Source: Mangrovicoccus sp. HB161399 (GTDB lineage: Bacteria; Pseudomonadota; Alphaproteobacteria; Rhodobacterales; Rhodobacteraceae). Taken from it: a DNA stretch of 43,028 bases. How positions within the stretch are numbered: the first letter of the stretch is position 1; each line of letters opens with the position of its first letter. Below are positions 9,716 through 27,140 of this stretch, in pieces. The notes under the pieces were generated by a model that was not told where the DNA came from, ran no database searches, and was given only the letters and a program-made list of their open reading frames with translations. The stretch lies in NCBI RefSeq assembly GCF_013184745.1, contig NZ_JAATVU010000051.1, positions 1 to 43,028 of the forward strand, in the 5' to 3' direction. Position numbers and translations under genes: made by a program.

Positions 9716-9776
9716 GCGCAGGTCCGTTTCGGGAAAGGGGCGCGCGCCGCGCGGGGCGGCGCAGCGGCCGGATCGG

Positions 9777-10844: not shown

Positions 10845-10913
10845 CGGGGTCTCCTTGGTAGAATCCGCGCGGCGCGCGGCACGGCCGGGACGGGCCCGGC
10901 AAGATAGGGGGGA

Positions 10914-10931
10914 CGGGCGGCAGTCCGCCCG
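10914..10931 (-). terminator. Hairpin between the solute-binding protein and alcohol dehydrogenase genes
   Basis: CGGGCGG and CCGCCCG form a 7-bp stem with a 4-base loop, some 40 bases after the solute-binding protein stop. No T tract follows. It may be a partial terminator or an RNA-stabilising stem that keeps binding-protein mRNA more abundant than the downstream part. Confidence 0.35.
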
Positions 10932-10971
10932 GACGCAGGCCGGCCGTCCCGCAGGACCGCCGGCCGCCGTC

Positions 10972-12537
10972 TCAATCGGCGAAATGGGCGGAGCGGAAGG
11001 AGGGCAGATAGTATTCCTCCTCCAGTCCCCGGAGCTTGGAGGAAACGCCGCTCTGGGCGATGCGCTCGTGCAGCGTCAGCACCGGCAGGTCGCGGGCCAG
11101 GATGCGCTGCGCCGCGGCATAGGCCTCGCCGCGCACGGCCCGGTCGGTGGCTGTCTGCCCCTCTTCGAAGAGCGCGTCGACCTCCGGGCTGGAATAGCCG
11201 GTGGGGTTGCCGAAGTTGCGGCCCTCGGTGGCGCTGCTCCAGATCCGGGTGAGGCCGATCGCCGGATCGCCGCCGGAATTGTAGGCCACCAGCGCAAGGT
11301 CGTAGTCGAAACTGGTGAAGACCGCCGGGATGACGCTGACGCGCTCGCCGGGTTCCAGCACCAGCTCGATCCCGACCTGCTGCAGCATCGCCTTCAGCGC
11401 GGTCGCCTCCAGCTGGGAGTCGCTTTCGGTGCTGAAGTACTTCACCGACAGCGCGAAGCGGGTGCCGTCGGCGCCGCGCGGCCTGCCGGCCTCGTCGAGC
11501 AGGGCGTTCGCCTTCTCCGGGTCATAGGGATAGAGCGCGTCGAAATCGGTGTCCGCATCCGCGGCCCAGCCCATGCGGTTGGTGAAGGGCATGGTGGCCG
11601 CCGCGCCGATGCCGTTGAAGGCGGTGGCCAGCAGCTGGCTGCGGTCGATCGCCATCATCATCGCCTGGCGCACCTTGGGATCGGCGAGATCGGGATTGCG
11701 GGTATTGGCCAGCATCACATCGATCGCCGGAACCGGCGAGGGGATCATCGTGTAGGCCGGGTTGCCTTCCAGCATCATGTAGTCGTTCGACGGCAGCAGG
11801 GTGAAGTTGACGTAGTCGACCTCGCCCGCCATCAGCGCCTGGGTGCGCGAGGAGGACTGCGGCAGGACCTGGCCGATCACCGCGTCGAGATAGGGCAGGC
11901 CCTCCTCCCAGTAATCCGGGTTCTTCGCCAGCTTGACGTACTGGCCGCGGCGCCATTCGTCGAACATGAACGGACCGGTGCCGACCGGCTCGGAGGTGGT
12001 CACCGGGTTGGTCGCAGGGTCGGTGCCCTCGTAGAGATGCTTCGGCAGGATCGCCGCGCCCTGGGTGCAGTTCAGCGTGCGCAGCAGCGGCCCGTAGGGC
12101 TTCGACAGGTGCAGCACGACCTCGTGCGGGCTGGGCGTGTCGATGCTCTCGATCGCCTTGGCGGCGCCGGAGAAGACCGAGCTGAACTTGCCGCTGATCT
12201 CCTCATAGGTGTATTTCACGTCCGCCGAGGTGAAGGGCGTGCCGTCGTGGAAGGTGGCGTCGCGCAGGTGGAAAGTGTAGGTCGTGCCGTCCTCGCTGAT
12301 CTCCCAGCTCTCGGCCAGGCGCGGGACGATGTCGCCCTCGGGGGTGACGTCGACCAGCCCCTCGTAGACCTTGCAGGCGACCAGCCCGTCGGGGGTGCTG
12401 GTGGAGAGGTTGCGGTTCAGTCCGGAGGGGTCGCTGCCCAGCACGAAGATCGCGGTTCCGCCCGTTCCCTGGGCCAGGGCCGCGCCGGCGCACAGCGCAA
12501 GGGCCGTCCCGACAGCTGCCATCGGCATTGGTCGCAT
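10972..12537 (-). CDS. ABC transporter solute-binding protein, family 5 (SBP_bac_5)
   Basis: A periplasmic binding protein of 521 residues for peptides or similar solutes. The signal peptide is MRPMPMAAVGTALALCAGAALA with cleavage likely before QGTGG. Family features include the early VYEGLVDVTPEGDIVPRLAESW region and the repeated YTFHLRDATFHDGTPFTSADV motif. I chose the ATG at 12537. It has AGGAG eight bases upstream and puts the signal peptide at the N-terminus; a frame opening at 12615 does not. It is first in the operon with the dehydrogenase and the Dpp-like components. A GntR-type operator copy lies at 12568-12579, just upstream of the ribosome site. Confidence 0.94.
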   Translation of the reverse strand: MRPMPMAAVGTALALCAGAALAQGTGGTAIFVLGSDPSGLNRNLSTSTPDGLVACKVYEGLVDVTPEGDIVPRLAESWEISEDGTTYTFHLRDATFHDGTPFTSADVKYTYEEISGKFSSVFSGAAKAIESIDTPSPHEVVLHLSKPYGPLLRTLNCTQGAAILPKHLYEGTDPATNPVTTSEPVGTGPFMFDEWRRGQYVKLAKNPDYWEEGLPYLDAVIGQVLPQSSSRTQALMAGEVDYVNFTLLPSNDYMMLEGNPAYTMIPSPVPAIDVMLANTRNPDLADPKVRQAMMMAIDRSQLLATAFNGIGAAATMPFTNRMGWAADADTDFDALYPYDPEKANALLDEAGRPRGADGTRFALSVKYFSTESDSQLEATALKAMLQQVGIELVLEPGERVSVIPAVFTSFDYDLALVAYNSGGDPAIGLTRIWSSATEGRNFGNPTGYSSPEVDALFEEGQTATDRAVRGEAYAAAQRILARDLPVLTLHERIAQSGVSSKLRGLEEEYYLPSFRSAHFAD

Positions 12538-12567: not shown

Positions 12568-12579
12568 TTTGTATTCAAA
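12568..12579. promoter_or_regulatory. Operator copy A (TTTGTATTCAAA) upstream of the solute-binding protein operon
   Basis: TTTGTATTCAAA is an imperfect palindrome in an AT-rich stretch, 31 bases upstream of the solute-binding protein start. The same motif recurs at 12714, 23321 and 23434, each at the start region of a transcript. It resembles sites of GntR/FadR-type regulators, and one is encoded at 26462. Confidence 0.65.
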
Positions 12580-12684
12580 CCGTAGATGCAGCCTGTTCAT
12601 GAGTCCACGATTCAAAGTTTATGAAGCCATAATTCCCTCATATGCCAAAAAGTGCCCAATATTTGAACTAAAATTCCGGATATT

Positions 12685-12713
12685 TTGACTGCAACGCAGA
12701 GAAGTTGGATCAT
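12685..12713 (+). promoter_or_regulatory. Candidate promoter of the CoA-transferase gene
   Basis: A -35-like TTGACT at 12685-12690 is followed after 17 bases by a weak -10, GATCAT, at 12708-12713. Operator copy B begins right after it, where transcription would start. Confidence 0.4.
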
Positions 12714-12725
12714 ATTGAATACAAA
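12714..12725. promoter_or_regulatory. Operator copy B (ATTGAATACAAA) upstream of the CoA-transferase gene
   Basis: ATTGAATACAAA is the reverse-complement form of the TTTGTATTCAA motif. It lies 15 bases before the CoA-transferase ATG and 146 bases centre to centre from copy A. A repressor bound here would cover the transcription start. Confidence 0.6.
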
Positions 12726-12740
12726 AATGGAGATTCGCCC

Positions 12741-13910
12741 ATGCAACCTTTCCGTGGCGTGATGGTGCTCGACGTGACCCATGTGCTGGCCGGACCCTTC
12801 GCGACGGTCCAGCTGGCGATGCAGGGCGCCTCCGTGATCAAGGTCGAACCGCCCGGGGACCCCGATCAGTCGCGCTTTGCCGGGGCGGATCCGGCTCTGA
12901 ACGCCGAGGGCCTCGGGACGGCCTTCCAGACCCAGGGCGCGGGCAAGCGCTGCCTGGCGCTCGATTTGAATACAGAGCAGGGGCGGACGGTCCTGCTGCA
13001 GCTTGCGGAACGGGCGGATGTCTTCGTCGAGAATTTCCGGCCGGGCGCGCTGGCCGGGCTGGGCCTGGGTGCGGCGGATCTGCGCAGGCGCAACCCCCGG
13101 CTGATCCATTGCGCGATCTCCGCCTTCGGCGCGGAAGGACCGCGCGGGCAGGAGACGGCCTATGATCTGGTGGTGCAGGCAGCCACCGGGCTGATGGCGA
13201 TGAACGGCACGCCCGAGACCTCGCCGGTCCGGCTGGGCATTCCGGCGGTGGACTACGCGACCGGCATGATGGCGGCCTATGCCATCTCGGCGGCGCTGTT
13301 CCGGCGCGAGCGGACCGGCGAGGGGGCGCAGATCGACCTGGCCATGGCAGATGTCGCCGGGCTGCTGATGGCCTCGGGCCTGACCGGCTTCGCCAATGGC
13401 GGGGCGGAGCCGCGGGCGACCGGCCATGCGCTGCCCGGCGTGGCGCAGGGGATGTTCCGCGCCAAGGACGGGCCGGTGGCGATCGCCGCCAACAACCTGC
13501 GCCAGCAGCAGCGGCTCTTCGCGGCGCTGGGGCGGCCGGATCTGGTGCGGGAGACGCGTGAGGAGGCGGCGCGCCACCGCGATGCCGACCGGGCCCAGCT
13601 GGAGCAGATGGTGGCGGAGCGCAGCGCCGCCGATCTGGAAGACCTGCTGCGCGCGGCGCGGGTCCCGGTCTCGCCGGTGCGCAGCGTCGCCGAGGCCATG
13701 GCCGATCCGCAGCGCCGCGCGCGCGGCAGCTTCGCCCGGCCGGAAACCGGCGGCCCGCTGCTGCCGCTGTCCGGCTTCCTGATCGACGGGCAGCCCGCGC
13801 GCCATGCATTCGCGCCGCGCAAGGCGGGGGCCGACAGCGCGGAGATCCTGGCGGAACTGGGATATTCGGAGGCCGAGATCGCCGCGCTGGCCGCCGGTGG
13901 CGTGATCTGA
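12741..13910 (+). CDS. CaiB/BaiF family (class III) CoA-transferase
   Basis: A cytoplasmic enzyme of 389 residues that should move CoA between carboxylic acids. The N-terminus VMVLDVTHVLAGPFATVQLA and the segment VIKVEPPGDPD are typical. ADVFVENFRPG follows, and the catalytic aspartate is likely D142 in AYDLVVQAATG. The ATG at 12741 gives the family-like N-terminus and has GGAGA upstream; an ATG at 12705 would add residues coded across operator B. It stands alone on the plus strand, divergent from the importer operon. Acid activation for a catabolic pathway is a reasonable role. A fifth operator-like sequence lies within the gene at 12965-12976. Confidence 0.93.
   Translation: MQPFRGVMVLDVTHVLAGPFATVQLAMQGASVIKVEPPGDPDQSRFAGADPALNAEGLGTAFQTQGAGKRCLALDLNTEQGRTVLLQLAERADVFVENFRPGALAGLGLGAADLRRRNPRLIHCAISAFGAEGPRGQETAYDLVVQAATGLMAMNGTPETSPVRLGIPAVDYATGMMAAYAISAALFRRERTGEGAQIDLAMADVAGLLMASGLTGFANGGAEPRATGHALPGVAQGMFRAKDGPVAIAANNLRQQQRLFAALGRPDLVRETREEAARHRDADRAQLEQMVAERSAADLEDLLRAARVPVSPVRSVAEAMADPQRRARGSFARPETGGPLLPLSGFLIDGQPARHAFAPRKAGADSAEILAELGYSEAEIAALAAGGVI
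12965..12976. promoter_or_regulatory. Operator-like copy C inside the CoA-transferase gene
   Basis: TTTGAATACAGA shares the core TTGAATACA with copy B, 251 bases upstream. It is coded by TTG AAT ACA (Leu-Asn-Thr), three AT-leaning codons in a row in a gene otherwise rich in G and C at third positions. It could be a downstream operator for looping repression, or chance. Confidence 0.3.
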
Positions 13911-13928
13911 CGCGCCGCCGGACAAGGC

Positions 13929-14408
13929 TCAGCCGATCAGGTCCTGCAGCGGCAGCGCGTGGCGCTGCACCGGGGTCTTGATCACGATGTAGCTGAAATA
14001 CTGCGAGATGCCGATGTTGCGCTCCAGGAGCGCCTCGGCCATCTCGTGGTAGTCCTGCACGTTGCGCGCGGTGAATTTCACCAGGTAGTCGTAGCCCCCC
14101 GAGATCAGGTGGCATTCGCTGACCTGCGGGATGCGCGCTATCTCGTTCTCGAAGCGGGCGAAGAGCTCCCGCCGGTGGTCGGCGAGAGTGAATTCGGTGA
14201 AGACCGTGATCGTGTCCGAGATCTTCGAGACGTCGACGAAGGCGCCGTAGCCCGAGATGATGCCCTGCGCCTCCATCCGCTTGATGCGCTGGATGCAGGG
14301 CGAGGCGGAAAGCCCGACATGCTCGGACAGGCGGACATTGGATATCCGCCCGTTCTTCATCAGCTCGCTGAGGATGCGGATGTCGATCTGGTCGAGCTTC
14401 TGCGACAC
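13929..14408 (-). CDS. Lrp/AsnC family transcriptional regulator
   Basis: A 159-residue DNA-binding regulator of normal family length. The N-terminal helix-turn-helix runs from LDQIDIRILSELMKNGRIS through SEHVGLSASPCIQRIKRME. The C-terminal RAM ligand-binding domain includes VSECHLISGGYDYLVKF and YHEMAEALLERNIGISQYFSYIV. Lrp proteins usually respond to amino acids or related small acids. The gene lies 10 bases after the dehalogenase gene on the same strand, so the two are probably co-transcribed. It may autoregulate and control the divergent aldehyde dehydrogenase. It converges on the CoA-transferase gene with only 18 bases between. Confidence 0.94.
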   Translation of the reverse strand: MSQKLDQIDIRILSELMKNGRISNVRLSEHVGLSASPCIQRIKRMEAQGIISGYGAFVDVSKISDTITVFTEFTLADHRRELFARFENEIARIPQVSECHLISGGYDYLVKFTARNVQDYHEMAEALLERNIGISQYFSYIVIKTPVQRHALPLQDLIG

Positions 14409-14418
14409 GTCATGCCCC

Positions 14419-15147
14419 TCAGGAGGCGAGCGACAGCTGCTTCTGATGGGCCTGGACGAGTTCGGCCATCGAATTGAAGCGGAAGTCGTATTTCGGCATC
14501 TCGCCGGGGTTCATCGTGGCGCCGAAGCCTTCCTTGTCGTGGCGGCGGTAGATCCAGGCCGAGGTCAGCCCGTGACGGTTGGCGGGCTGGTGGTCGTGGA
14601 ACATGCTCTCGGCGGTGTGCAGGATGTCGCCCTTGCCGTAGCCGTTGCGCGCCAGATGCGCGAGCATGTAGTCGAAATTCCGGTCCGACGGCTTGTACGA
14701 GCCCACGTCCTCGGCGGTGTAGACATAGTCGAAGGTCACGCCGAGCTTCTCGTTGGAATGGGCGAAGCTCCTCGCGTCCACGTTCGAGAGCACGGCCAGC
14801 TTGTAGTATTTCTGCAGGTACTGCAGCGCGCCGGCGCTGTCGGCGAAAGCGGGCCAGTATTCGACCGAATTGCCGTAGGTCTCGCATTCCGCCCAGGTCA
14901 CCGGGATGCCCCATTCCTCGGCAATGCGGCGGTAGACCGTGGCCAGCAGGCGCGAATAGGGCATTGCGGGCGTCGCCGCCTGCTGGGTGCTCTCATGGAA
15001 GGCGTGGGTTTCCAGAACCTTGTCGCGGCTGGGCTGCTCGGGCAGGCGTTCGAAGAGAGGGCGAAGGCCTTCGAACATGCCGGTCTCCCAGTCGATCAGG
15101 GTGCCGTAGACGTCGAAGGTCAGGACTTTGAAATCTTGCAGGGTCAT
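14419..15147 (-). CDS. Haloacid dehalogenase type II (HAD superfamily)
   Basis: A 242-residue HAD hydrolase resembling L-2-haloacid dehalogenases. The nucleophile motif is FDVYGTLIDW, with the aspartate near residue 12. Motif II appears as LSNVDARS, the lysine of motif III as GSYKPSDRNFDYML, and the acidic end region as ESMFHDHQPANRHGLTSAWIYRR. The ATG at 15147 gives the canonical N-terminus. Several family members act on phosphorylated or other substrates, so halogen chemistry is not proved. The neighbours are an Lrp regulator downstream and a divergent aldehyde dehydrogenase. Dehalogenation of a haloacid followed by oxidation would be coherent but is inference. Confidence 0.88.
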   Translation of the reverse strand: MTLQDFKVLTFDVYGTLIDWETGMFEGLRPLFERLPEQPSRDKVLETHAFHESTQQAATPAMPYSRLLATVYRRIAEEWGIPVTWAECETYGNSVEYWPAFADSAGALQYLQKYYKLAVLSNVDARSFAHSNEKLGVTFDYVYTAEDVGSYKPSDRNFDYMLAHLARNGYGKGDILHTAESMFHDHQPANRHGLTSAWIYRRHDKEGFGATMNPGEMPKYDFRFNSMAELVQAHQKQLSLAS

Positions 15148-15496
15148 CGGTGTTTCGCTCTCGTTGCTTCTGTGGTGTCGGTTCCGGGCCGCCGCGGAGG
15201 CGCCGCGCCGCCGGTCTCCGCCGCGGGGACGGGGCCTGGCTGTTCCGTCCTTCCGGCGGCCATGAATGTCTTCCTTCCTCCAGATGCACGTCCCGCACCT
15301 GTTCCGCAAGCGGCGGGCCCGGCCGGACCGGTCCGCTGCGGCACCATCCTTGCCGCTGCCGCGCCGCGGAATTCACCGAATTTCCCGCCGAAACTGCCGG
15401 GAAATGTTGTTCTGCGGTGCAGCTTTGCCGAAACCCGCTGCCGGAGCCGTCCTAGCCTCGGAGCCATCGAAAATGTGAAAACAGGGCAGGTGCTTC
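15148..15496. other. Intergenic region between divergent dehalogenase and aldehyde dehydrogenase genes
   Basis: A 349-base region that must hold both promoters. I see one dyad (15381-15404) but no convincing -35/-10 pair and no copy of the GntR-type motif, so this pair of operons may be controlled differently from the rest of the island. Confidence 0.5.
15381..15404. promoter_or_regulatory. Dyad TTTCCCG-N10-CGGGAAA upstream of the aldehyde dehydrogenase gene
   Basis: Two perfect 7-base arms are separated by 10 bases, about 92 bases before the aldehyde dehydrogenase start. The arm centres are about 17 bases apart. It is a plausible regulator site, perhaps for the Lrp protein encoded nearby, but untested. 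Confidence 0.35.
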
Positions 15497-16933
15497 ATGA
15501 GCCGGAAAGATTTCTATATTGACGGACAATGGGTTGGGTCGAAGGGCACGCTGACCCGCGAGATCGTCGATCCGGCGAGCTACGAGGTCATCGGCCATGT
15601 CTCCCTGGCCACGGCGGAGGATGTCGAGGCAGCGGTTTCCGCTGCGCGGCGCGCCTTCGAGCGGCAGATCGGCCCGGAGGGGCTGGACGTTGCGGCGCGG
15701 ATCGCGCTGCTCCGCCGCATCGCCGACATCATGGAGCGCCGCCAGGAGGACCTGGCCCAGGCGATCTCCGCCGAGATCGGCGTGCCGATTTCCTATGCGC
15801 GCAGCGGCCATGCCGCCGCCGGAGCCGCGCATATCCGCATCCTCTGCGAGGAGATGGAGCGCTTCTCCTTCGAATGGATGCAGACCGATACGCTGGTGAC
15901 CCGGGTGCCGATCGGCGTCGCCGCGCTGATCACGCCCTGGAACGTGCCGGTCAACCAGATCGTCATCAAGGTCGCTCCGGCGCTGGGGGCCGGCTGCGCG
16001 GTGATCCTGAAGCCGTCGGAGATCGCGCCGGGCAATGCCCGGATCATCGCCGAGATCCTCGACGAGGCGGGCGTGCCGCCGGGCCTGTTCAACCTGATCC
16101 ACGGCGACGGCGAAGGCGCGGGGGCGGCGCTGTCCTCGCATCCCGACATCGACATGGTCTCCTTCACCGGCTCGACCCGCGCGGGCGTGGCCGTGTCGCG
16201 CAATGCCGCGCCGACGGTGAAGCGGGTCGGGCTGGAGCTGGGGGGCAAGTCGGCCAACATCCTGCTGCCCGACGCCGATTTCGCCGAGGCCGTCGCCAAG
16301 GGCGTGAAGGGCTGCTTCGCCAATTCCGGCCAGGCCTGCTCGGCGCCCAGCCGCATGCTGGTGCCGCAGGACCGGATGGAAGAGGCGGCCGCGGTCGCGG
16401 CGGAAACCGCGGCGGGCTTCGCGACCGGCGATCCGCGCGATCCCGGCACCGATCTGGGCCCGGTGGCGGGCGAGGCGCAGTGGACGCGCATCCAGGGACT
16501 GATCGAGAGCGGCATCGCCGAGGGCGCGCGGCTGGTGGCCGGCGGTCCGGGCCTGCCCGAGGGGCTTGCCTCGGGCGCCTATGTGCGGCCGACGGTCTTC
16601 GCCGATGTCGCCCCGGACATGGCCATCGCGCAGCAGGAAATCTTCGGCCCCGTGCTGTCGATCATCGGCTACCGGGACGAGGACGACGCGGTCCGCATCG
16701 CCAACGGCACGGTCTACGGGCTGGCCGCCTATGTGCAGGGCCGCGACCTGGACCGGGTCCGTGCCGTCGGCCGCCGCCTGCGCGCCGGGCGGGTGCACCT
16801 GAACTACCCGGTGCTCGACCGGACCGCGCCCTTCGGCGGCTTCCGCCAGTCCGGCAACGGCCGCGAGCAGGGGCGGTACGGGCTTGAGGAATTCCTCGAA
16901 TACAGTGCATTGATCGGTCATGGCCATGGATGA
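15497..16933 (+). CDS. NAD(P)+-dependent aldehyde dehydrogenase
   Basis: A 478-residue aldehyde dehydrogenase of standard length. The oxyanion-hole asparagine is N149 in ITPWNV, the general base E247 in GLELGGKSAN and the nucleophile C281 in NSGQACSAPSRM. The nucleotide-binding FTGSTRAG precedes them, and PFGGFRQSGNGREQGRYGLEEF closes the domain. It should oxidise an aldehyde to an acid; the substrate is not evident. The lyase-like gene starts just after or overlaps its end, so the pair is probably one transcript. A coupled lyase-to-aldehyde-oxidation step is possible. Confidence 0.95.
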   Translation: MSRKDFYIDGQWVGSKGTLTREIVDPASYEVIGHVSLATAEDVEAAVSAARRAFERQIGPEGLDVAARIALLRRIADIMERRQEDLAQAISAEIGVPISYARSGHAAAGAAHIRILCEEMERFSFEWMQTDTLVTRVPIGVAALITPWNVPVNQIVIKVAPALGAGCAVILKPSEIAPGNARIIAEILDEAGVPPGLFNLIHGDGEGAGAALSSHPDIDMVSFTGSTRAGVAVSRNAAPTVKRVGLELGGKSANILLPDADFAEAVAKGVKGCFANSGQACSAPSRMLVPQDRMEEAAAVAAETAAGFATGDPRDPGTDLGPVAGEAQWTRIQGLIESGIAEGARLVAGGPGLPEGLASGAYVRPTVFADVAPDMAIAQQEIFGPVLSIIGYRDEDDAVRIANGTVYGLAAYVQGRDLDRVRAVGRRLRAGRVHLNYPVLDRTAPFGGFRQSGNGREQGRYGLEEFLEYSALIGHGHG

Positions 16934-16943
16934 GGAGATGCCG

Positions 16944-18476
16944 ATGGCGGAGAACGGCAATCCGGACCGGGCCCCTGCGGGTGCTGCCGCGCCCGGCCGC
17001 CCGGGGGCGCGCCGGACGGCGCCCCCGGCCTACATGGACAGCTACAAGGAGGCCTTCGTCGAGGAAACGGCGGCCTTCGTGCATTCCTATGACCTGGCCC
17101 ATGTGACGATGCTGGGCGAGCGCGGGATCCTGCCCGCGGAAACCGCGCTCGGCGTGCTGGCGGGGCTGGCGGACATGCAGGCGCGTGGCCTCGCAGACTG
17201 CCGCCGCGCCGCGGGAGGCGGCAACCACGCGGGCGAGAAATACCTGACGCAGGCGCTCGGCAGCGAGATCGGCGGCGCCATCGGGCTGGCCCGCTCCTCC
17301 GGCGATCTCTCGGCGATCTCCTTCCGTATGTATGCCCGCGACCGCGTCCTGTCGCTGCGCGGCGGGCTGCTGTCGCTGCGCGGCGCGCTGGCCGACTTCG
17401 CCCGCCGCCATGCCGAGACGGTGCTGCCGGGCAATACCCATGGCCAGCACGCCCAGCCGGTCACCGCCGCACTCTGGGCGATGATGCTTCACGACGCGCT
17501 GGCGCGCGACGGCGCCCGGCTGGCTGCGCTCGGCACCAGGCTCAATCTCAGCCCGGCGGGCGCGGGGATCATGTCGGGAACGGAATTCCCGATCGACCGC
17601 CGCCGGATCGCCGATCTGCTGGGCTTCGACGCGGTGGTGCCGAACACGCTGGATGCCGCGCTCAGCCACGATCTGGAGATCGAGTTCGCCTCGGTCCTGA
17701 ACCTGCTCTGCCACACGCTGTCGCGGATGGCCGAAGACCTGTTCCTGTGGACGACCACCGAATACGCCCTGATCGCGCTGCCGGACTGGTTCATCGGCAT
17801 TTCCTCGATGATGCCGCAGAAGCGCAATCCAGACGGGCTGCAGGATCTGCGCAACCTCTCGGCGCAGTCGCAGGCGGTGCTGACCATGGTAACGGGCACC
17901 GAACGCGGCCCGACCGGCTTCCCGATCATCGAGCGGCGCAATTCCGACCGGATGCTGCGCGCGCTGGCGGCCGGGATCGGCGAGCGGCTGGAGGTGCTGC
18001 CGGATCTGCTGGCGGAGATGGCGGTCGATGGCGCCCGCGCCGAGGACCTCGCCAATGCCGGCTGGGCCAGCGTCACTGACCTGGCCGGGGCGCTGGTCCG
18101 GATCAACCGGATCGAATGGCGCCGGGCGCACAACCTGGTGGCTGGCTTCGTGCGCGACTGCATCGCGCGGGGCATCGGGCCGGTCGAGGTCACGGCCGAG
18201 GATTTCAACGCCTATGCCAGCCGCAGCGGCGCGCAGATGGTGACGATGGACGACGCGACCCTGACCAAGGCGCTGGATGCCCGCGCCTTCGTGCGCCGCC
18301 GCGAGACCTTCGGCGGGCCGGGCCCCGGCGCGATGGAGCAGGCGATCCGCAATGCCGGGGCGCGGATGCGCGAGGAGGAAGCCGCCATCGCCGCCCTGCG
18401 GGCGCAGTTCGCGGCTGCCGAGGCGCTGCTGCAGGAGACCGTGCAGCGCACGCTGGCGGCCGGCCGCTTCGCCTGA
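16944..18476 (+). CDS. Argininosuccinate-lyase-like enzyme (fumarase/aspartase superfamily), catalytically complete
   Basis: A 510-residue lyase expected to eliminate an amine or alcohol from a dicarboxylate-like substrate, usually as a homotetramer. The three superfamily regions are present: ARSSGDLSAISFRMYARD, GNTHGQHAQPVT with the conserved Thr-His, and the signature loop ISSMMPQKRNPD with the catalytic serine. I prefer the ATG at 16944, which has GAGGAG six bases upstream. ATGs at 16920 and 16926 would overlap the aldehyde dehydrogenase. It is unlikely to be the arginine-biosynthetic enzyme: context is catabolic, the loop starts ISS rather than GSS, and the protein is longer than the usual 460 residues. 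A related but motif-less protein is encoded at 19713-21197. Confidence 0.85.
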   Translation: MAENGNPDRAPAGAAAPGRPGARRTAPPAYMDSYKEAFVEETAAFVHSYDLAHVTMLGERGILPAETALGVLAGLADMQARGLADCRRAAGGGNHAGEKYLTQALGSEIGGAIGLARSSGDLSAISFRMYARDRVLSLRGGLLSLRGALADFARRHAETVLPGNTHGQHAQPVTAALWAMMLHDALARDGARLAALGTRLNLSPAGAGIMSGTEFPIDRRRIADLLGFDAVVPNTLDAALSHDLEIEFASVLNLLCHTLSRMAEDLFLWTTTEYALIALPDWFIGISSMMPQKRNPDGLQDLRNLSAQSQAVLTMVTGTERGPTGFPIIERRNSDRMLRALAAGIGERLEVLPDLLAEMAVDGARAEDLANAGWASVTDLAGALVRINRIEWRRAHNLVAGFVRDCIARGIGPVEVTAEDFNAYASRSGAQMVTMDDATLTKALDARAFVRRRETFGGPGPGAMEQAIRNAGARMREEEAAIAALRAQFAAAEALLQETVQRTLAAGRFA

Positions 18477-18485
18477 GGGCGAATG

Positions 18486-18510
18486 GCTCCGGGCGTGCCG
18501 CGCCCGGAGC
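18486..18510. terminator. Bidirectional hairpin between the lyase and MFS genes
   Basis: GCTCCGGGCG and CGCCCGGAGC form a perfect 10-bp stem around TGCCG, between convergent stops at 18476 and 18516. No T tract is seen. Confidence 0.6.
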
Positions 18511-18515
18511 TGCCG

Positions 18516-19697
18516 TCAGCTTTCCGCAGCGGCGCGCTGTTCGCGCCCGGTGCCGCCGAGCAGAGCGGCCAGCGACAGCAGCGCGATGGCCGGGAAGAGC
18601 AGCGCGCCATGGCCGAGATCGATCATCCGCCCGATGGCGAGCGGCGCCAGCACCTGGCCCGCGAAGAGGCCGGAGGTGACGAAGCCGAAGATCGCCGCCT
18701 GGTCCGGTCCGCGCGCCTGATCGGCCAGCAGCGTGTCGCGCGAGGGCAGGGCGAGCCCGTTGCCGACCCCCGCCGCGCAGGCCAGCACGGCGACCGCCGC
18801 GGCCGGAAGGCCGGGCATCGCCGCGGCAAGCCAGAACAGTCCCGACCCGCCCATGCCCAGCAGCATCACGCGGCCCGGCCCGATCCTGGAGGACAGCGCC
18901 CCGCCGAGGACCACGCCGGCCGTGGCCGCCGCCAGATAGGCCGACAGCAGAGCGGTCGCCGCCGGGGCGTCCATCCGGCCGGTCTGGGCCATGGCCGGGA
19001 TCAGGAAGCCCTGCAGCCCGGCCGATATCGCGCCGAACAGCCCGAAGACCGCGAATTGCAGCTGGAACCGGGCCTGCCGCCAGATGCCCGCCGCCTGCGG
19101 CCTTGCCTTCGGCGCGGCGGGCGTGTCCGCTCCGGCGAGCCCGCGGCGGGCGAGGACCAGCGCCAGGATGCCGGCCAGCGACAGCGCCGCCGCCGCCGCA
19201 AGTCCCGCGCGCCAGCCGAAGGCCAGGCCGATCCCGCCGGTCAGCAGCGGCGCCGCGGCGAATCCGGCCGTGCCGGCCACCGAATGGACCGCGAAGGCGG
19301 TGCTGCGCCGGGCTTTCGAGACATGGCTCGACAGCAGCGACATGTCTGCCGGGTGATAGACCGCATTGGCCACGCCCGCAGCGATGACGCAGATCGCCAG
19401 CACCGCGAAGCCCTGTGCCAGCGTGGCCAGAAGGAAGGCCGCCGCCGCCCCGGCCAGCGCGGCATGCAGCAGCGGCATGCCGCCGAAGCGGTCGGTCAGG
19501 CGGCCCATCCGGGTCTGCAGCAGCGCGCCGACCAGGCTGTAGCCGACGGTCAGCAGCCCCAGCGTGGCATACGACGTGCCAAATTCCGCGCGCAGCAGCG
19601 GATAGAGCGGCGGCAGCGCGAGGATATGGACGTGGCTGACGAAATGGACGGCGGAGATCAGCACGATCATCCGCCAGTCCCGGCGTTTTTCGGTCAT
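18516..19697 (-). CDS. MFS transporter
   Basis: A 393-residue carrier with about 12 predicted membrane helices. The N-terminus RDWRMIVLISAVHFVSHVHILALPPLYPLL and the motif AVYHPADMSLLSSHV recall the fosmidomycin-resistance-like group. The loop GRLTDRFGG is a degenerate version of the MFS GRxxDRxGR motif. It is the last gene of the operon that starts with the FAA hydrolase, 15 bases after the second lyase-like gene. It probably exports or imports a small acid or pathway intermediate, but the direction cannot be told. Confidence 0.88.
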   Translation of the reverse strand: MTEKRRDWRMIVLISAVHFVSHVHILALPPLYPLLRAEFGTSYATLGLLTVGYSLVGALLQTRMGRLTDRFGGMPLLHAALAGAAAAFLLATLAQGFAVLAICVIAAGVANAVYHPADMSLLSSHVSKARRSTAFAVHSVAGTAGFAAAPLLTGGIGLAFGWRAGLAAAAALSLAGILALVLARRGLAGADTPAAPKARPQAAGIWRQARFQLQFAVFGLFGAISAGLQGFLIPAMAQTGRMDAPAATALLSAYLAAATAGVVLGGALSSRIGPGRVMLLGMGGSGLFWLAAAMPGLPAAAVAVLACAAGVGNGLALPSRDTLLADQARGPDQAAIFGFVTSGLFAGQVLAPLAIGRMIDLGHGALLFPAIALLSLAALLGGTGREQRAAAES

Positions 19698-19712
19698 CCC
19701 TGTGCCTCCCGG

Positions 19713-21197
19713 TCAGGCGCGCGCGGTCTTGCGCGGCTGCAGCAGCAGCCCTTCGGCGGCGGCGCGCAGCTGGGCGCGGGCGCGCTCCAGCGCATGGTGG
19801 CGGTCGGCAAGGCGGCTGCGCCCGAGCCGGATCCGCGCCTGGGCCGAGACCAGCCCGCGGGCCAGCCCTTCGGGGCCGGGTCCGCCCGTGCCCGAGCGGC
19901 GCTCGACGAAAGCGCGCGGGTCGAGCGCGGCGTCGATCTGCTCCTGCGACAGCCGTGCCTCGGCCATGCCGAGCTCGGACGCGACCCGAGAAAGCGCGGC
20001 CGCGGTCAGCGTCTCGGGGCCGGTGCCGCGGGCGAGCCCGTCGCGCATCACCGCCTCGGCCAGCTGTTCGGCGCGGTGGCGCGCCATGCCGCAATGCCGC
20101 CCGAGCGCTGCAGAGAGGTCGATCGCCAGGCTCCATTCCCGCGCCGCGAGCCGCGCCGCCCGGCCGGCATCGATCCGCACCCCGTCGAGCAGCCGCGCGA
20201 TCTGCGGCAGCCCTTCCAGCACTTCGCCGGACAGGCCGATGGCGCCCTCTTCCGAGGCGTGGCGGCCGTAATTCGCCAGGGCTGTCGGGCCGCGTTCGGC
20301 CAGGACGGCGGAGGAGGCGACCCCATGGGCGCGGGCGGCCAGCATTCGGATCGCGCCCAGAACGGCGGGTCCGGCATCGCGGGCGAAGCGCGCCCCGCCG
20401 GTTTCGCCCGGCAGCGCCACCAGCCCCTGTCCGGGTCCGGCCCAGAGCAGCAGGTCATCGGCCAGCCGGGCGGCGGTCTGCGCCAGAATCGCCAGCGCGC
20501 CGGTGAATTCCAGCATCAGGTCCTGCCCGGCCACGGCGTCATAGGTGTTCTCCACCAGCCCGTCGAAGCCCAGCAGCTCGGCGGTGCGCAGCCTGCGCAG
20601 CGGCAGGTCGGCGCCGGAAAGCCCGCCGGCCCCGGCCGGGGAGCGGTTGATCCGCCCGTAGAGCGCCACCAGCCGCTCCGAATCGCGGGTCAGGGCGGAG
20701 TCGATCATCAGCGCCCAATGGCCGAATGTCGTCGGCTGCGCCGGACCGCCTTGCACCTGCGCGGCGACGATCTCGCCCGAATGCGCGTCGGCAAAGCGGA
20801 TCAGCGATTCGCGCAGCTGGTAGAGCGCTTCCATCAGCTCCAGCAGCCGCGTGCGCGCGAAGAGGCGGAATCCGGTCGCCGCCAGTTCCGCCGGGCTGCG
20901 TGCCAGGCCGAGCTGGCCGCCGACCGCCGGTCCCAGCCGCGCCGTCACCAGCCGTTCGCCGGCCAGGTTCCCGCCGCCCACGCCGTCGCGGGCATCGAAG
21001 ACGCCCTCGATCTCGGTATCGAACAGCGTCGACAGGATCGCCGCCCCGGTCTCGGGGGCGACGAGCTCGCTTTCCACCAGAACGACCATGTGCGCCAGGT
21101 CGAGCTCGTGGAGATGCGGTGCCGTCTCGGGCCGCACCGGGTCTTCCGGCGCGGCATGGGAGAGGGCGGAAAACGGGCCCGGCGTGGTGTCGGTCAT
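19713..21197 (-). CDS. Argininosuccinate-lyase-like protein lacking catalytic motifs (probable pseudoenzyme)
   Basis: A 494-residue relative of the lyase at 16944-18476 with a similar overall pattern. Examples are GGGNLAGERL against GGGNHAGEKY, RINRSPAGAGGLSGADLPLRRLRTAELLGFD against the equivalent SPAGAGIMSG region, and RRSGTGGPGPEGL against RRETFGGPGPGAM near the C-terminus. Three active-site regions are altered. SSGDL has become SPAEL, the Thr-His of THGQHAQP has become VQGGPAQP, and the serine loop has become ALPGETGGARFARDAG. It should not catalyse the canonical elimination. It may be a regulatory or structural subunit, or have new chemistry. Its ATG overlaps the reductase stop (ATGA), so it is translated with the operon and not decaying. 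Confidence 0.8.
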   Translation of the reverse strand: MTDTTPGPFSALSHAAPEDPVRPETAPHLHELDLAHMVVLVESELVAPETGAAILSTLFDTEIEGVFDARDGVGGGNLAGERLVTARLGPAVGGQLGLARSPAELAATGFRLFARTRLLELMEALYQLRESLIRFADAHSGEIVAAQVQGGPAQPTTFGHWALMIDSALTRDSERLVALYGRINRSPAGAGGLSGADLPLRRLRTAELLGFDGLVENTYDAVAGQDLMLEFTGALAILAQTAARLADDLLLWAGPGQGLVALPGETGGARFARDAGPAVLGAIRMLAARAHGVASSAVLAERGPTALANYGRHASEEGAIGLSGEVLEGLPQIARLLDGVRIDAGRAARLAAREWSLAIDLSAALGRHCGMARHRAEQLAEAVMRDGLARGTGPETLTAAALSRVASELGMAEARLSQEQIDAALDPRAFVERRSGTGGPGPEGLARGLVSAQARIRLGRSRLADRHHALERARAQLRAAAEGLLLQPRKTARA

Positions 21198-22420
21198 GCG
21201 TGGACGGCCTTTCTTGCGTTCAGCGACCGTAGCTGGACCGAGGGGTCTTGGAGAAGCCCCTTCTCCAAGACGGCCCCGCTTTCGATCAGCGCGGTGACCG
21301 GGCGGGTGTCGCGGCCCTGGTCGATCATCACCGCGCCGATGATGCGGCCCTCCTCGAGGTAGAGCCGGGTCTGCGCGCCCTCCGGATCGCCGCGCAGGAC
21401 GGAGTCGCCGGCACCGAGCGGATCGCCCAGCACCTGCAGGTTGATGCCCTGCTGGTCGGTCCAGAACCAGTGCACCGGCGCGTAGTCCGACGGGAGCCCC
21501 GCCATGCGCCGTGCCACATGCGCGCCGTGGCGGCGGGCATGCTGCCAGGTCTGCCAGCTCTGCCGCGCGCCGGACGGACCGGGAAAGACGGTGGCATCGC
21601 CGGCCGCGTAGATGCCGGGAACCGAAGTCCGGCCGTCGCCGTCGACGACAATGCCGCGGTCGATCTCCAGCCCGGCCGCTGCGGCAAGCGCGGTATCGGC
21701 GTCGAATCCGATGCCTGCGACCAGCAGGTCGGCGGCGAGCACCGATCCGTCCTTCAGCGCGACGACCTGGCGGCCGTCCGCCCGGGTGGTGACGCCGGTG
21801 ATTCCCGCGCCGAACAGGAACTTCACCCCGGCCGCCTCGTGCCGGGATTGCAGCAGTGCCGAGATTTCGGGCGGCAGCGAGCGGGCCATGACGCGCTCGC
21901 CTGCCTCGATCACGGTGACCTCCAGCCCGAGCTTGCGCGCCGACGACGCGGTTTCCAGCCCGATCACGCCCGCGCCGATCACCGCCAGGTGGCCGCCCTT
22001 GCGCAGGGCGGCATGCAGCAGCCGCGAATCGGCGGCGGTGCGCAGCACGTGGCAGGCCTCGCCGCCGGGAACGGCAAGCTGCCGCGGCATGCCGCCGGGA
22101 CAGAGCAGCAGCCGGTCGTAGCCCAGCCGGTCCCCGCCTTCGAGCACGACCTCGCGCGATCCGGCTTCGATCCGCTCGGCGGCCCTGCCGCCATGGAACG
22201 CGATTCCGCCCGCCGCCCAGTCATGCGGGGCGGACTCGGGGAAGGTGTCGGCGGTCAGCCACTCCTTGGAGAGGGAGGGGCGTTCGTAGGGCAGGCCGGC
22301 ATCGGCGTCGACCAGGATGATTTCCGCCTCGAGCGCGCCGGATTTCGCGGCCTTGGCCAGCTCCTGCGCCGCCGCGGCGCCGGCATGTCCGGCGCCGATG
22401 ATCACGTGGCGCCGGGTCAT
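21194..22420 (-). CDS. FAD-dependent ferredoxin reductase of a Rieske oxygenase system
   Basis: A 408-residue flavoprotein that should pass electrons from NAD(P)H to a small iron-sulfur protein. The FAD site is VIIGAGHAGAAAAQEL at the N-terminus, the NAD site is LAVIGAGVIGLETASSARKLG near residue 150, and the second FAD motif is SVPGIYAAGDATVFPG. The arrangement is that of oxygenase-coupled reductases. The likely partner is the Rieske ferredoxin encoded at 27141, with the oxygenase at 23512. I start at 22420, where ATG overlaps the FAA-hydrolase stop as ATGA. The longer open frame is extended upstream into that gene. Confidence 0.92.
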   Translation of the reverse strand: MTRRHVIIGAGHAGAAAAQELAKAAKSGALEAEIILVDADAGLPYERPSLSKEWLTADTFPESAPHDWAAGGIAFHGGRAAERIEAGSREVVLEGGDRLGYDRLLLCPGGMPRQLAVPGGEACHVLRTAADSRLLHAALRKGGHLAVIGAGVIGLETASSARKLGLEVTVIEAGERVMARSLPPEISALLQSRHEAAGVKFLFGAGITGVTTRADGRQVVALKDGSVLAADLLVAGIGFDADTALAAAAGLEIDRGIVVDGDGRTSVPGIYAAGDATVFPGPSGARQSWQTWQHARRHGAHVARRMAGLPSDYAPVHWFWTDQQGINLQVLGDPLGAGDSVLRGDPEGAQTRLYLEEGRIIGAVMIDQGRDTRPVTALIESGAVLEKGLLQDPSVQLRSLNARKAVHA

Positions 22421-23298
22421 GCCACCATGTTCTCCAGCGCGCCGATGCCGCTGATCTCCACCCGCACGGTGTCGCCGGGCACCAGGTAGACCGGCGGGAC
22501 CATCCCGATGCCGACGCCTTCGGGCGTGCCGGTCAGGATGATGTCGCCGGGCTCCAGCGTGATGACGCGGGAAATCGTCTCGATCAGGGTCGGGATGTCG
22601 AAGATCAGGTCCTTCAGCACGGCATCCTGCCGCTTCTCGCCGTTGACATGGGTGGTCAGGCGCATCTCGCCCAGTTCCGGAATGTCGGCGGCGGGCGTGA
22701 TGCAGGGGCCCATCGGGCAGAAGCCGTCGATCGACTTGCCGATCAGCCACTGGCGGTGGTCCTTCTGCAGGTTCCGCGCGGTGACGTCATTGGCGACCGT
22801 GTAGCCCCAGACATGGTCCATCGCCGCCGCCTTCGAGATGCCGCGGCCGCCCTTGCCGATGATGACGGCAAGCTCGCCTTCGTAGTCGGTGCTGTCCGAG
22901 TAGTCGAGCCAGGAGGGAATCGGCGCGCCGGGTCCGGTCACGGTGCTGGGCGCCTTGGTGAAGATGATCGGGAATTCCGGCGTGGCGTCCTTGCCGGCGG
23001 AGGCGTCGAAGCCCGAGCGGTGAAACTCCTCGGCATGGGCATGGTAGTTCTTGCCGACGCAGAAGATGTTCCGGCCCGGACGCGGCAGCGGCGCCAGCAG
23101 GATGACATCGGCCAGCGGCACGGGCGCGGCCTTGGCGGCGGCGGCCTCGGCCTCCGCCTCGCGCCCGATCAGATCCAGCAGGTCCCCGCCGCGGCACAGC
23201 CCGTCCAGCGGCAGCACGGCGGTGCCGTCCGCACTCAGCGCGCCTGCGCGGGGCGCTGCGGCGGAATCGGAAGCGGGTCGAAAGCTCACATATTTCAT
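22417..23298 (-). CDS. Fumarylacetoacetate hydrolase family protein
   Basis: A 293-residue metal-dependent enzyme of the FAH fold. Members hydrolyse C-C bonds of acylpyruvates or isomerise and decarboxylate ring-fission products. The metal site is formed by glutamates around DYEGELAVIIGK and an upstream acidic residue. GYTVANDVTARNLQ, GKSIDGFCPMGP and ILTGTPEGVG are family hallmarks. CVGKNYHAHAEEF marks the start of the catalytic domain. It heads a four-gene minus operon and is divergent from the Rieske alpha gene. A role as fumarylpyruvate-type hydrolase downstream of ring cleavage fits the neighbourhood but the ring-cleavage enzyme is not here. Operator copy D overlaps its promoter. Confidence 0.93.
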   Translation of the reverse strand: MKYVSFRPASDSAAAPRAGALSADGTAVLPLDGLCRGGDLLDLIGREAEAEAAAAKAAPVPLADVILLAPLPRPGRNIFCVGKNYHAHAEEFHRSGFDASAGKDATPEFPIIFTKAPSTVTGPGAPIPSWLDYSDSTDYEGELAVIIGKGGRGISKAAAMDHVWGYTVANDVTARNLQKDHRQWLIGKSIDGFCPMGPCITPAADIPELGEMRLTTHVNGEKRQDAVLKDLIFDIPTLIETISRVITLEPGDIILTGTPEGVGIGMVPPVYLVPGDTVRVEISGIGALENMVA

Positions 23299-23320
23299 CT
23301 TTGGTCTCCTTGTCCGCGTT

Positions 23321-23350
23321 CTGAATACAAAATGACAGCGCGTCGGTCAA
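23321..23350 (-). promoter_or_regulatory. Promoter and operator copy D of the FAA-hydrolase operon
   Basis: Read on the minus strand, TTGACC (-35, 23345-23350) and TATTCA (-10, 23322-23327) are 17 bases apart. The -10 lies within an operator copy, CTGAATACAAAA at 23321-23332 on the plus strand. Binding there would block RNA polymerase. Confidence 0.6.
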
Positions 23351-23411
23351 TCTGAATGCTTAATCGAGAGGCGGTTGCCTTTTTGATAGGTCATAATTGC
23401 AAAAAAATATG

Positions 23412-23447
23412 TTGACTATGGGATGCACCTACGTTTTGTATTCAAAA
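23412..23447 (+). promoter_or_regulatory. Promoter and operator copy E of the Rieske oxygenase operon
   Basis: TTGACT at 23412-23417 and a -10-like TTGTAT at 23436-23441 are 18 bases apart. The -10 lies inside TTTTGTATTCAAAA (23434-23447), the most complete operator copy, whose arms TTTTG and CAAAA are palindromic. This is the layout of a promoter shut by a repressor. Confidence 0.65.
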
Positions 23448-23511: not shown

Positions 23512-24783
23512 ATGAAGGACTTCGCCAGCGTTCAGGTGAACTGGCCGCGCAAGGACTATTCCCGCGTGCCGTATTCGATCTACCACGACCCCGAGATCTA
23601 CCAGCTGGAGCAGGAGAAGATCTTCCGCGGGCGATGCTGGAACGTGCTTTGCCTTGAAGCCGAGATCCCGAATCCGGGCGACTTCCGCGTCTGCCATGTC
23701 GGCGACACGCCGGTGGTGGTGAACCGCGACGACGACGGCGAGCTATACGCCTTCGTCAACCGCTGCGCCCATCGCGGCGCCGAGATCGTCCGCGAGCCCT
23801 GGGGCACCGCGAAAGAGCACACCTGCATCTACCATGCCTGGCTCTACAACCGGAAGGGCGACCTGAAGGGCGTTCCCTTCCGCCGCGGCGCCAACGGCAA
23901 GGGCGGCATGCCCGCCTGCTTCGACATGAAGAACCACAACCTGGTGAAGGTGCGCGTCACCTCCTTCAACGGCGTGATCTTCGGCACCTTCCACCACGAC
24001 ATGGAGCCGATCGAGGAGTATCTCGGCCCGCTGTTCACCAAGCATGTCGGCGAGATGTTCAACCGTCCGGTCAAGGTGCTCGGCTACCAGCGCCAGCGGA
24101 TCAACGCCAACTGGAAGCTCTATCCGGAGAACATCAAGGACGCCTATCACGGCTCGCTCCTGCACGAGTTCAACCGGACCTTCGGCCTGTCGCGCCTGAC
24201 CCAGGTCGCCGGCGGCTACATGGACGAGAAGCACCGCCACTCGATCCTCTTCCAGTACAAGGGATCGGACAGCGACGAGGAAGCGCTGAAGGCCTATATC
24301 GAGAACGGCGTGAAGAAGGGCGAGATCGCCGGGCTGAACGACTACTCGATGGTCAACATCATCGACGAGAACCCGTTCGGCATGTCGACCCGCGTGATGA
24401 ACGTCTTCCCGAACTGCTTCTTCCACCAGATCGGCAACACCCTGGCGATGCGCAAGATCCGCACGCTCGGCGTCGACGCGTTCGAGCTGACCTGGGTGCT
24501 CTACACCTACGAGGACGACAGCGAGGAAATGGTCCAGCACCGGCTGAACCAGGCCAACATGGTGGGTCCGGCGGGCCTGATCTCCATGGAGGACGGCGAG
24601 GCGCTGGAAATGGTGCACCGCACCACGAAATCCGCAGCCGAAGAAGAGATGGCCGTCATCGAGATGGGCGGCATCGGCGAGATCGGCGACCGCGACACCC
24701 GCGTGAACGAGGTCACCATCCGCGGCTTCTGGGCCTATTACGCGCAGCTCATGGGCTTTGCCCCGGAAGGAGCCGAACAATGA
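23512..24783 (+). CDS. Rieske ring-hydroxylating oxygenase, alpha (catalytic) subunit
   Basis: A 423-residue oxygenase subunit. The Rieske cluster ligands are C85 and H87 (NRCAHRG) and C105 and H108 (CIYHAW). The mononuclear iron site includes D210, H213 and H218 in KDAYHGSLLH. Segments such as GDTPVVVNR, GDLKGVPFRRG and QANMVGPAGLISMED resemble salicylate 5-hydroxylase and anthranilate dioxygenase large subunits, so a benzoate-like substrate is likely. An AAAGGA ribosome site precedes the ATG. The beta subunit follows with an ATGA overlap. The ferredoxin (27141) is downstream in the same direction, and the reductase (22420) is in the divergent operon. Confidence 0.95.
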   Translation: MKDFASVQVNWPRKDYSRVPYSIYHDPEIYQLEQEKIFRGRCWNVLCLEAEIPNPGDFRVCHVGDTPVVVNRDDDGELYAFVNRCAHRGAEIVREPWGTAKEHTCIYHAWLYNRKGDLKGVPFRRGANGKGGMPACFDMKNHNLVKVRVTSFNGVIFGTFHHDMEPIEEYLGPLFTKHVGEMFNRPVKVLGYQRQRINANWKLYPENIKDAYHGSLLHEFNRTFGLSRLTQVAGGYMDEKHRHSILFQYKGSDSDEEALKAYIENGVKKGEIAGLNDYSMVNIIDENPFGMSTRVMNVFPNCFFHQIGNTLAMRKIRTLGVDAFELTWVLYTYEDDSEEMVQHRLNQANMVGPAGLISMEDGEALEMVHRTTKSAAEEEMAVIEMGGIGEIGDRDTRVNEVTIRGFWAYYAQLMGFAPEGAEQ

Positions 24784-25298
24784 GAGACCTGATGGACAAG
24801 CCCGCCGCGCGCAAGACCGACCGGTCGATTCCGATGGAGGTGCGCCAGGCTGCCGACGATCTGATCATGGACAGCACGGTCCACCTGGACCGGATGGAAC
24901 TGGACGCCTGGATCGAGTGCTTCGACGAAACCGCCGAATATCACGTGATCCCGCGCGAAAACCTCGAAGTGGGCTATGGCGCGGCGGTGATCCGCTGCAA
25001 TTCGCTCGACGTCATCAAGGACCGGCTGATGGTCCTCGACGTGTCGAGCAAGTACAACCCGCATTGGGACCGGCATTTCCTGAACGGCACCCAGTACCTG
25101 TCCTACGAGGACGGGATCCTGGAGGCTCGCACCAACTTCATGATCGTGCAGTCGTCGCTGGAAGGCTTCTCCAAGCTCTTCGTCGCCGGTCACTACGAAG
25201 ACAAGATCGTGATGACCGACGCCGGGCCGCGCCTGCGCTCGCGGGTCGTCGTGCTCGACACCTTCTCCGTCCCGAACCTGATCGCGGTCCCGCTCTGA
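24780..25298 (+). CDS. Rieske ring-hydroxylating oxygenase, beta (small) subunit
   Basis: A 172-residue protein of the SnoaL/NTF2-like fold, the structural partner of the alpha subunit in an alpha3beta3 hexamer. Family landmarks are LDAWIECFDETAEYHVIPREN near residue 42 and the C-terminal strand segments FVAGHYEDKIVMTDAGPRLRSRVVVLDT. Its ATG overlaps the alpha stop. An alternative ATG at 24792 would shorten it by four residues. Confidence 0.93.
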   Translation: MRDLMDKPAARKTDRSIPMEVRQAADDLIMDSTVHLDRMELDAWIECFDETAEYHVIPRENLEVGYGAAVIRCNSLDVIKDRLMVLDVSSKYNPHWDRHFLNGTQYLSYEDGILEARTNFMIVQSSLEGFSKLFVAGHYEDKIVMTDAGPRLRSRVVVLDTFSVPNLIAVPL

Positions 25299-25307
25299 GG
25301 AAATCCG

Positions 25308-25970: not shown

Positions 25971-25989
25971 CGACCAAGGACCAAGATAC

Positions 25990-26394
25990 ATGAACATCGC
26001 CTATATCGATCCGCCGGGCTCGGTCCCGGCCCAGGGGCTCTATACCTCGGTCGGCCATCTCGAAGGTTCCGCCTACCGCTTCGTCGCGGGCCAGCTTTCG
26101 GTCAACGCGGCCGGCGACATCGTCGGCGCGGACGACTTCGACGCGCAGTTCGACCAGGTCTTCGGCAATCTCGAAGGCGTCATCAAGGGCCTGGGCGGTT
26201 CGATGGCCTCGGTGGTCAAGTTCACCACCTTCGTCACCTCGCGCGACTGCATCGACCCCTTCATGAAGAAGCGCGCCGCGGATTTCCCGAAATGGTATCC
26301 GTCGGGCATCTTCCCGCCGAACACCCTGCTGATCGTGCAGGGGCTGGTGAAGCCCGAGTTCATGCTCGAGGTGGAAGCCGTCGTGGCGATATGA
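25990..26394 (+). CDS. Rid (YjgF/YER057c/UK114) family protein without the usual catalytic arginine
   Basis: A 134-residue protein of the trimeric Rid family. Classic RidA hydrolyses enamines and imines, and pathway-specific relatives deaminate aminomuconate-type compounds. The body is typical (YRFVAGQLSVNAAGDIVG, FGNLEGVIKGLGGSMASVVKFTTFVTS). The segment that normally reads like PARSTVEV, with the substrate-binding arginine, here reads PPNTLLIVQGL. A general deaminase role is therefore doubtful, and it may bind or transform another pathway intermediate. It lies between the RraA-type and GntR genes with short gaps and an AAGGA ribosome site. Confidence 0.88.
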   Translation: MNIAYIDPPGSVPAQGLYTSVGHLEGSAYRFVAGQLSVNAAGDIVGADDFDAQFDQVFGNLEGVIKGLGGSMASVVKFTTFVTSRDCIDPFMKKRAADFPKWYPSGIFPPNTLLIVQGLVKPEFMLEVEAVVAI

Positions 26395-26400
26395 CAGGCA

Positions 26401-27139: not shown

Positions 27140-27140
27140 G

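Follow-up and report, generated by a model that had tools for sequence, protein, structure and literature searches.

A rare, conserved operator motif at four promoters of a catabolic island in Mangrovicoccus sp. HB161399 and its likely VanR-type GntR/FCD repressor

A catabolic island in Mangrovicoccus sp. HB161399 raises the question of whether gene sets read from several promoters answer to a single regulator. The island lies in a 43,028-nt stretch of DNA, the whole of which we call the window, and a first-pass annotation had pointed to four near-identical AT-rich palindromes in it as operators of a GntR/FCD protein encoded in the island (hereafter GntR). Our analysis indicates that the operator set is real, specific and conserved, and that it most likely serves this local regulator, which appears to be of the VanR type and to act as a repressor. 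Regulation of this kind is well known; the pathway is unstudied.

The four near-identical sequences are present where they had been reported (Table 1), and they share the 9-mer core TTGTATTCA, which is matched four times in the window, at 12569+, 12716-, 23322- and 23436+ (shuffle mean 0.01). All four cores are intergenic and fall within two divergent gaps, one between the genes for a solute-binding protein (SBP) and a CoA-transferase and the other between those for a fumarylacetoacetate hydrolase (FAH) and a Rieske oxygenase alpha subunit; the "four divergent promoters" of the earlier description are, more exactly, four promoters in two divergent gaps. When up to two mismatches are allowed, the window has seven strand-matches to TTTGTATTCAAA, spread over five places (mean in shuffles 0.21, largest 2). 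The fifth place, TCTGTATTCAAA at position 12965, lies inside the CoA-transferase gene. We considered this copy as an auxiliary operator and rejected it, as the congener locus L064 holds no counterpart within one mismatch of the motif's 10-mer; it is probably a chance occurrence. The sites are near-palindromic rather than perfect palindromes: in the 12-mer, positions 4 and 9 set T against T. The operator signature TNG(N)nCNA, quoted for GntR proteins in PMC7797058, is found as TTG-TATT-CAA at three sites; operator 3, with TTG-TATT-CAG, departs from it in the last letter.

In the genome as a whole (G000; 7,179,110 bases, or 7.18 Mb), near-exact copies of the motif are rare outside the window rather than frequent and randomly placed. 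The core TTGTATTCA occurs nine times, four of them in the window, against no occurrence of the reversed control, and TTGTATTCAA occurs four times, with three in the window. With at most one mismatch, TTTGTATTCAAA is found at six places genome-wide, of which five belong to the window, namely the four sites plus the copy at 12965 within the CoA-transferase gene. Under a uniform model, the probability of finding at least four of nine genomic cores no more than 35 kb from a single point, on either side, is about 1e-6. Each of the five cores outside the window lies in an open frame of at least 296 codons. Judged by GC content at third codon positions, those on contigs C190 and C291 look coding; those on C41 and C299 sit in low-GC stretches, and the core at C223:78661 may be intergenic, because the frames around it do not look coding.

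The sites are also kept in orthologous intergenic regions. Among 394 genomes of the host family, a search with the Rieske alpha subunit at 1e-100 reached only three, namely the genome itself and two at 40-42% identity. Near relatives are found in Poseidonocella sp. HB161398 (100%), Novosphingobium flavum (N. flavum; 78%) and two Thioclava plasmids (97%), a distribution that suggests lateral transfer. To the left of the island (window 3952-4970), two adjoining frames contain pieces of an IS110-type transposase (PF01548, PF02371), which is consistent with such movement. The congener HB161398 retains all four sites, split over two contigs: the SBP/CoA-transferase pair is on C278, which stops just past the CoA-transferase, and the Rieske locus is on C46. 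(G394 and G397, the latter of the same genus and with an identical contig place, were counted as one genome.) The gap between operators 1 and 2 differs at many positions between the window and HB161398; the operators, the gene-proximal ends and a block between the operators, TCATGAGTCCACGATTCAAA (window 12598-12617), which contains the possible SBP -35 element, are kept. In N. flavum, the FAH/Rieske gap measures 414 bp against 213 bp in the window and its sequence differs, and yet the two sites stand in unchanged order and orientation, and nothing else in 21 kb comes within one mismatch of the 10-mer. On Thioclava plasmid p3, the FAH/Rieske pair has the 115-bp spacing of the window across a spacer that is 41% identical; its copy on the Rieske side has the opposite orientation, as a dimer site would allow, and its FAH-side copy, spotted by eye, carries two mismatches. 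A scan of the window with Rfam at gathering thresholds gave zero matches.

Which regulator reads these sites is suggested by their association with GntR genes. In the alphaproteobacterium G438, whose GntR is 46% identical, each of the four genomic cores is at most 12 kb from the GntR gene, and on Thioclava p3 all three are near GntR homologues, one of them ahead of a second GntR gene. Plasmid pSA1 of N. resinovorum SA1 has three of its eight cores near GntR, two of these no more than 230 bp ahead of it, and N. flavum has two of four. The window's genome and HB161398 have 4/9 each, counts that are not independent, and the GntR contig of HB161398 carries only two of its four. GntR was matched in 37 of 385 genomes, and flanking regions were compared for 29 of the 45 matches that were listed from genomes other than that of the window. 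Among these more distant homologues, the palindrome TTGnATnCAA is found within 300 bp upstream of ten and downstream of none (a mean of 0.2 and at most 3 in dinucleotide shuffles; none on either side for the reversed word), in the variants ATTGTATACAAT, ATTGGATCCAAT and ATTGTATCCAAT. Conversely, 14 distant Rieske loci (L031-L044, 36-51% identity) that have no close GntR also have no exact core; two of them hold only a distant GntR (26-28%). A search within G438's order, which took in only seven genomes, added nothing. Co-occurrence and upstream palindromes together lend independent support to the tie between motif and GntR that had been proposed for the window.

Several loci with the motif hold other gene sets. 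A second divergent pair in N. flavum (L068 19461 and 19989), 28 kb from the Rieske locus, lies between genes for a pyrroloquinoline quinone (PQQ) dehydrogenase with a cytochrome domain and a TonB-dependent receptor (L068 17275-19425; L069 25-2391). On pSA1, copies sharing TGAATACAATCTA (L079 9475, 14775 and 14925) precede genes for a TonB receptor, a glycoside hydrolase family 3 (GH3) glycosidase and GntR, with RidA and FAH genes downstream. The second GntR of Thioclava p3 (L077 15836-16495) is 64% identical to that of the window, with a core just ahead of it at 15775 and a divergent lyase gene. In G438 (L110 9497-17857), an extradiol LigB-type dioxygenase, RidA, FAD monooxygenases and an importer of branched-chain type accompany GntR near cores, likely as another aromatic-pathway regulon.

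The placement of the sites relative to the promoters suggests how they might act. At the Rieske promoter, the 18-bp gap between a TTGAC-type hexamer and the 10-mer is identical in the window, HB161398, N. flavum and Thioclava. The predicted FAH -35 element is the same in HB161398 and its gap is one shorter (16) in N. flavum; no -35 element was found at the FAH promoter of Thioclava. These two promoters fit the earlier observation that two of the sites overlap -10 elements. At the SBP and CoA-transferase promoters, the corresponding gaps are 23-24 bp, which would put the site at or just past the -10 element; no such hexamer was found at the latter promoter in HB161398. TTGAC-type hexamers also stand 17-18 bp ahead of the 10-mer at three more promoters in N. 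flavum and pSA1, and in all, 15 of the 17 sites examined have a -35-like hexamer.

The GntR protein itself consists of an N-terminal GntR winged helix (PF00392, E 5.4e-17, residues 10-69) and a C-terminal FCD domain (PF07729, E 2.2e-23, residues 79-203). Its residues N132, H136 and H180 align with those of Atu1419 of Agrobacterium fabrum, and H202 is shifted by one residue in the alignment; these four would be the metal ligands of the FCD pocket. A predicted model of modest confidence (mean pLDDT, the predicted local distance difference test score, 68.5; three-row alignment) places six helices after the wing. Effector domains of VanR proteins have six helices and those of FadR proteins seven. 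The nearest solved folds are FCD proteins, including McbR, PmiR, Atu1419 and AlkR, and FCD pockets usually take carboxylates. The gene sits within the Rieske operon, itself among the proposed targets of the protein. It encodes the only GntR regulator among the window proteins scanned, which were part of the open frames, and in this sense it is the sole regulator of its kind, as had been claimed; an Lrp/AsnC and a LacI regulator are also present.

We consider it very probable that the four sites are operators of this island's autoregulated VanR-type FCD repressor, which would block four sigma-70-like promoters. A GntR dimer would bind the near-palindrome TTTGTATTCAAA via its TTTG half-sites, covering the -10 element at FAH and Rieske and lying at or just past it at SBP and CoA-transferase, and the bound protein would keep RNA polymerase from all four promoters. 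Occlusion of the polymerase is the natural reading given the precedents reported for Atu1419 (PMC7797058) and AlkR (PMC12042122). GntR would be released by a metabolite of the pathway, most likely a carboxylate that occupies the FCD pocket, and this would jointly induce the Dpp importer with the alcohol dehydrogenase, the CoA-transferase, the FAH-reductase-lyase-MFS (major facilitator superfamily) operon and the Rieske operon. As GntR is encoded in the Rieske operon, it would also repress its own synthesis.

A number of observations weigh against this model. We infer both the binding of GntR to the sites and its effect on expression from sequence. With two mismatches, TTTGTATTCAAA is at background genome-wide (33 strand-matches versus 39 for the reversed control); therefore, only near-exact matches are informative. 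Since the right half of the site reads TTCAA, a single half preserves the GT/AC box of the FadR group. Two of the 17 sites examined lack a -35-like hexamer. Two of the four G438 cores lie within predicted frames, close to their 5' ends, and one of the three Thioclava cores is inside the FAH gene. The palindrome TTGnATnCAA is missing from the 300 bp upstream of 19 of the 29 homologues, and five loci with a GntR of 40-45% identity (L111, L112, L114, L115 and L117) show neither it nor the core in 18-20 kb. Finally, one-mismatch 10-mers occur in five of the 14 Rieske control loci (L031, L032, L033, L040 and L043).

Could another regulator, or no regulator, explain the motif? The Lrp/AsnC and LacI proteins are both encoded in the window, and an AsnC-HAD pair is likewise present near the N. 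flavum Rieske locus and in HB161398, so that either might be thought to own the operator. However, tblastn at 1e-8 detected neither of them in L077 (41 kb), L079 (31 kb) or L110 (20 kb), three loci with cores and GntR; L118 has AsnC-HAD and no core, and LacI appeared in none of the 30 loci compared. (Matches to AsnC came from N. flavum, L065 and L118, with a further one at 33% in L068.) We therefore reject this assignment as very improbable. It is harder still to credit that the motif is a mere promoter element, a -10 word without operator function. Part of it does follow a TTGAC-type hexamer by 16-18 bp at several promoters, but a general -10 word would recur throughout the genome, and the core is present only nine times in 7.18 Mb. 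Moreover, the motif is turned relative to transcription at SBP, at CoA-transferase and at the Thioclava Rieske promoter, and its exact form is missing from the 14 Rieske loci without GntR. This explanation, too, is rejected, with almost no probability left to it.

That GntR binds the sites and activates, or activates and represses according to the promoter, has in our judgment a slim chance of being right. CitO, an FCD protein, is reported to act as an activator, and the division into two promoters with the site over the -10 element and two with the site at or past it might accommodate a mixed mode. Sites over or downstream of -10 elements are, however, usual for repression, and Atu1419 and AlkR repress from such positions. 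It is tempting to speculate that GntR, the operator word and a Rieske-FAH-RidA core form a portable module that moved between Rhodobacterales and Sphingomonadales, with looping between paired operators and added promoters specific to each host: the Dpp importer and CoA-transferase in the window, PQQ dehydrogenase and TonB receptor in N. flavum, GH3 glycosidase and TonB receptor on pSA1. The 115-bp spacing, kept as the spacer drifts, speaks for the looping, which was considered because Atu1419 loops. The distances of 146 and 115 bp correspond to about 14 and 11 helical turns, but this phasing is not significant over six pairs (Rayleigh p ~0.46), and we regard the module as possible and rather unlikely.

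Returning to the repressor model, the motif unites four gene sets of the island (Table 1), as the first-pass annotation had envisaged, and leaves out two others: neither the aldehyde dehydrogenase-lyase operon (15497-18476) nor the HAD-AsnC pair (13929-15309) has a site. The best solved relatives of the encoded proteins are AgaA (6hlx) for SBP, 3noj for RraA, 8sky for FAH and, for the lyase at 16920, 6g3d, which was deposited as an argininosuccinate lyase and which we take to be EDDS lyase. Lyases of the ArgH/fumarase type occur twice in the window (16920-18476 and 19713-21197) and twice in the Thioclava island (L077 14327-15649 and 30783-32297). The 6g3d-related lyase and the AgaA-like SBP hint at a substrate with a C-N bond to a dicarboxylate, so that a purely aromatic acid is not assured.

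Table 1. Candidate operators, promoter elements and gene sets in the window (operon extents are predicted)
Feature	Position	Strand	Remarks
Operator 1 (candidate), TTTGTATTCAAA	12568..12579	+	Ahead of leftward SBP-alcohol dehydrogenase-Dpp operon; kept in HB161398 (L064 10301)
Operator 2 (candidate), ATTGAATACAAA on +	12714..12725	-	Ahead of rightward CoA-transferase; kept in HB161398 (L064 10448)
Operator 3 (candidate), TCTGAATACAAA on +	23320..23331	-	Ahead of leftward FAH operon; overlaps predicted -10
Operator 3 counterparts			HB161398 L029 9812; N. flavum L030 9621; Thioclava L077 19811 (two mismatches, by eye)
Operator 4 (candidate), TTTTGTATTCAAAA	23434..23447	+	Ahead of rightward Rieske operon; overlaps predicted -10
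Operator 4 counterparts			HB161398 L029 9927; N. flavum L030 9958; Thioclava L077 19926 (turned round)
Predicted -35 TTGACT, Rieske promoter	23412..23417	+	18 bp ahead of 10-mer
Predicted -35 TTGACC, FAH promoter	23345..23350	-	17 bp ahead of the site's TATTCA part
Possible -35 TGGACT, SBP promoter	12602..12607	-	23 bp ahead of 10-mer; same in HB161398
Possible -35 TTGACT, CoA-transferase promoter	12685..12690	+	24 bp ahead of 10-mer
Operon behind operator 1: SBP (10972-12537), alcohol dehydrogenase, DppB, DppC, DppDF	6324..12537	-	Predicted extent
CaiB-type CoA-transferase behind operator 2	12741..13910	+	
Operon behind operator 3: FAH (22417-23298), ferredoxin reductase, lyase, MFS	18516..23298	-	Predicted extent
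Operon behind operator 4: Rieske alpha, beta, RraA, RidA, GntR, Rieske ferredoxin (27141-27458), ABC importer, HpcH aldolase	23512..31183	+	Predicted extent
GntR/FCD regulator, proposed binder of the four operators	26462..27139	+	Pfam GntR and FCD; within Rieske operon
Lrp/AsnC regulator	13929-14408	-	
LacI regulator	33118-34134	+	

The operator word gives a specific entry point to this uncharacterised island: the gene sets behind it can be treated as a single pathway that leads from import through an oxygenase to side-chain processing. In other genomes, it points to further candidate members of the pathway, and the effector of the regulator would reveal the substrate; both could be of use in annotation and pathway discovery. 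Among the papers listed by a literature search that covered few subscription journals, there was no account of the regulon and none with TTGTATTCAA, which is weak evidence that it is unpublished. Nor is the island's regulon among those in the sections considered of the FadR-group survey (Suvorova et al., PMC4494728).

Among known systems, the closest counterparts to the proposed regulon include two VanR-type repressors. Atu1419 is an FCD repressor whose operator lies over the -10 element (PMC7797058). Like GntR of the window, to which it is among the solved relatives by both sequence and fold, it belongs to a catabolic region; as proposed for GntR, it regulates its own region, and it does so through a short AT-rich palindrome, ATGTATACAT, with two sites in one gap. 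The two proteins differ in that they share only about 24% identity over the aligned fold, with other operator letters and other genes, and a tetramer and looping are demonstrated for Atu1419 (PMC7797058). AlkR, the GntR/VanR repressor of alkB2 in Pseudomonas aeruginosa, differs in its 13-bp site with an odd centre, its single main target and its acyl-CoA effector; it resembles the proposed system in the TTG/CAA half-sites of its palindrome, ATTGTCAGACAAT, which lies over the -10 regions of a monooxygenase gene, and in its release by a pathway metabolite, as we propose for GntR (PMC12042122). The divergons of the FadR group have a GT/AC box that the window motif keeps in one half only, and their separate-sites group shares with the island the arrangement of two sites per divergent gap, each near its own gene (Suvorova et al., PMC4494728).

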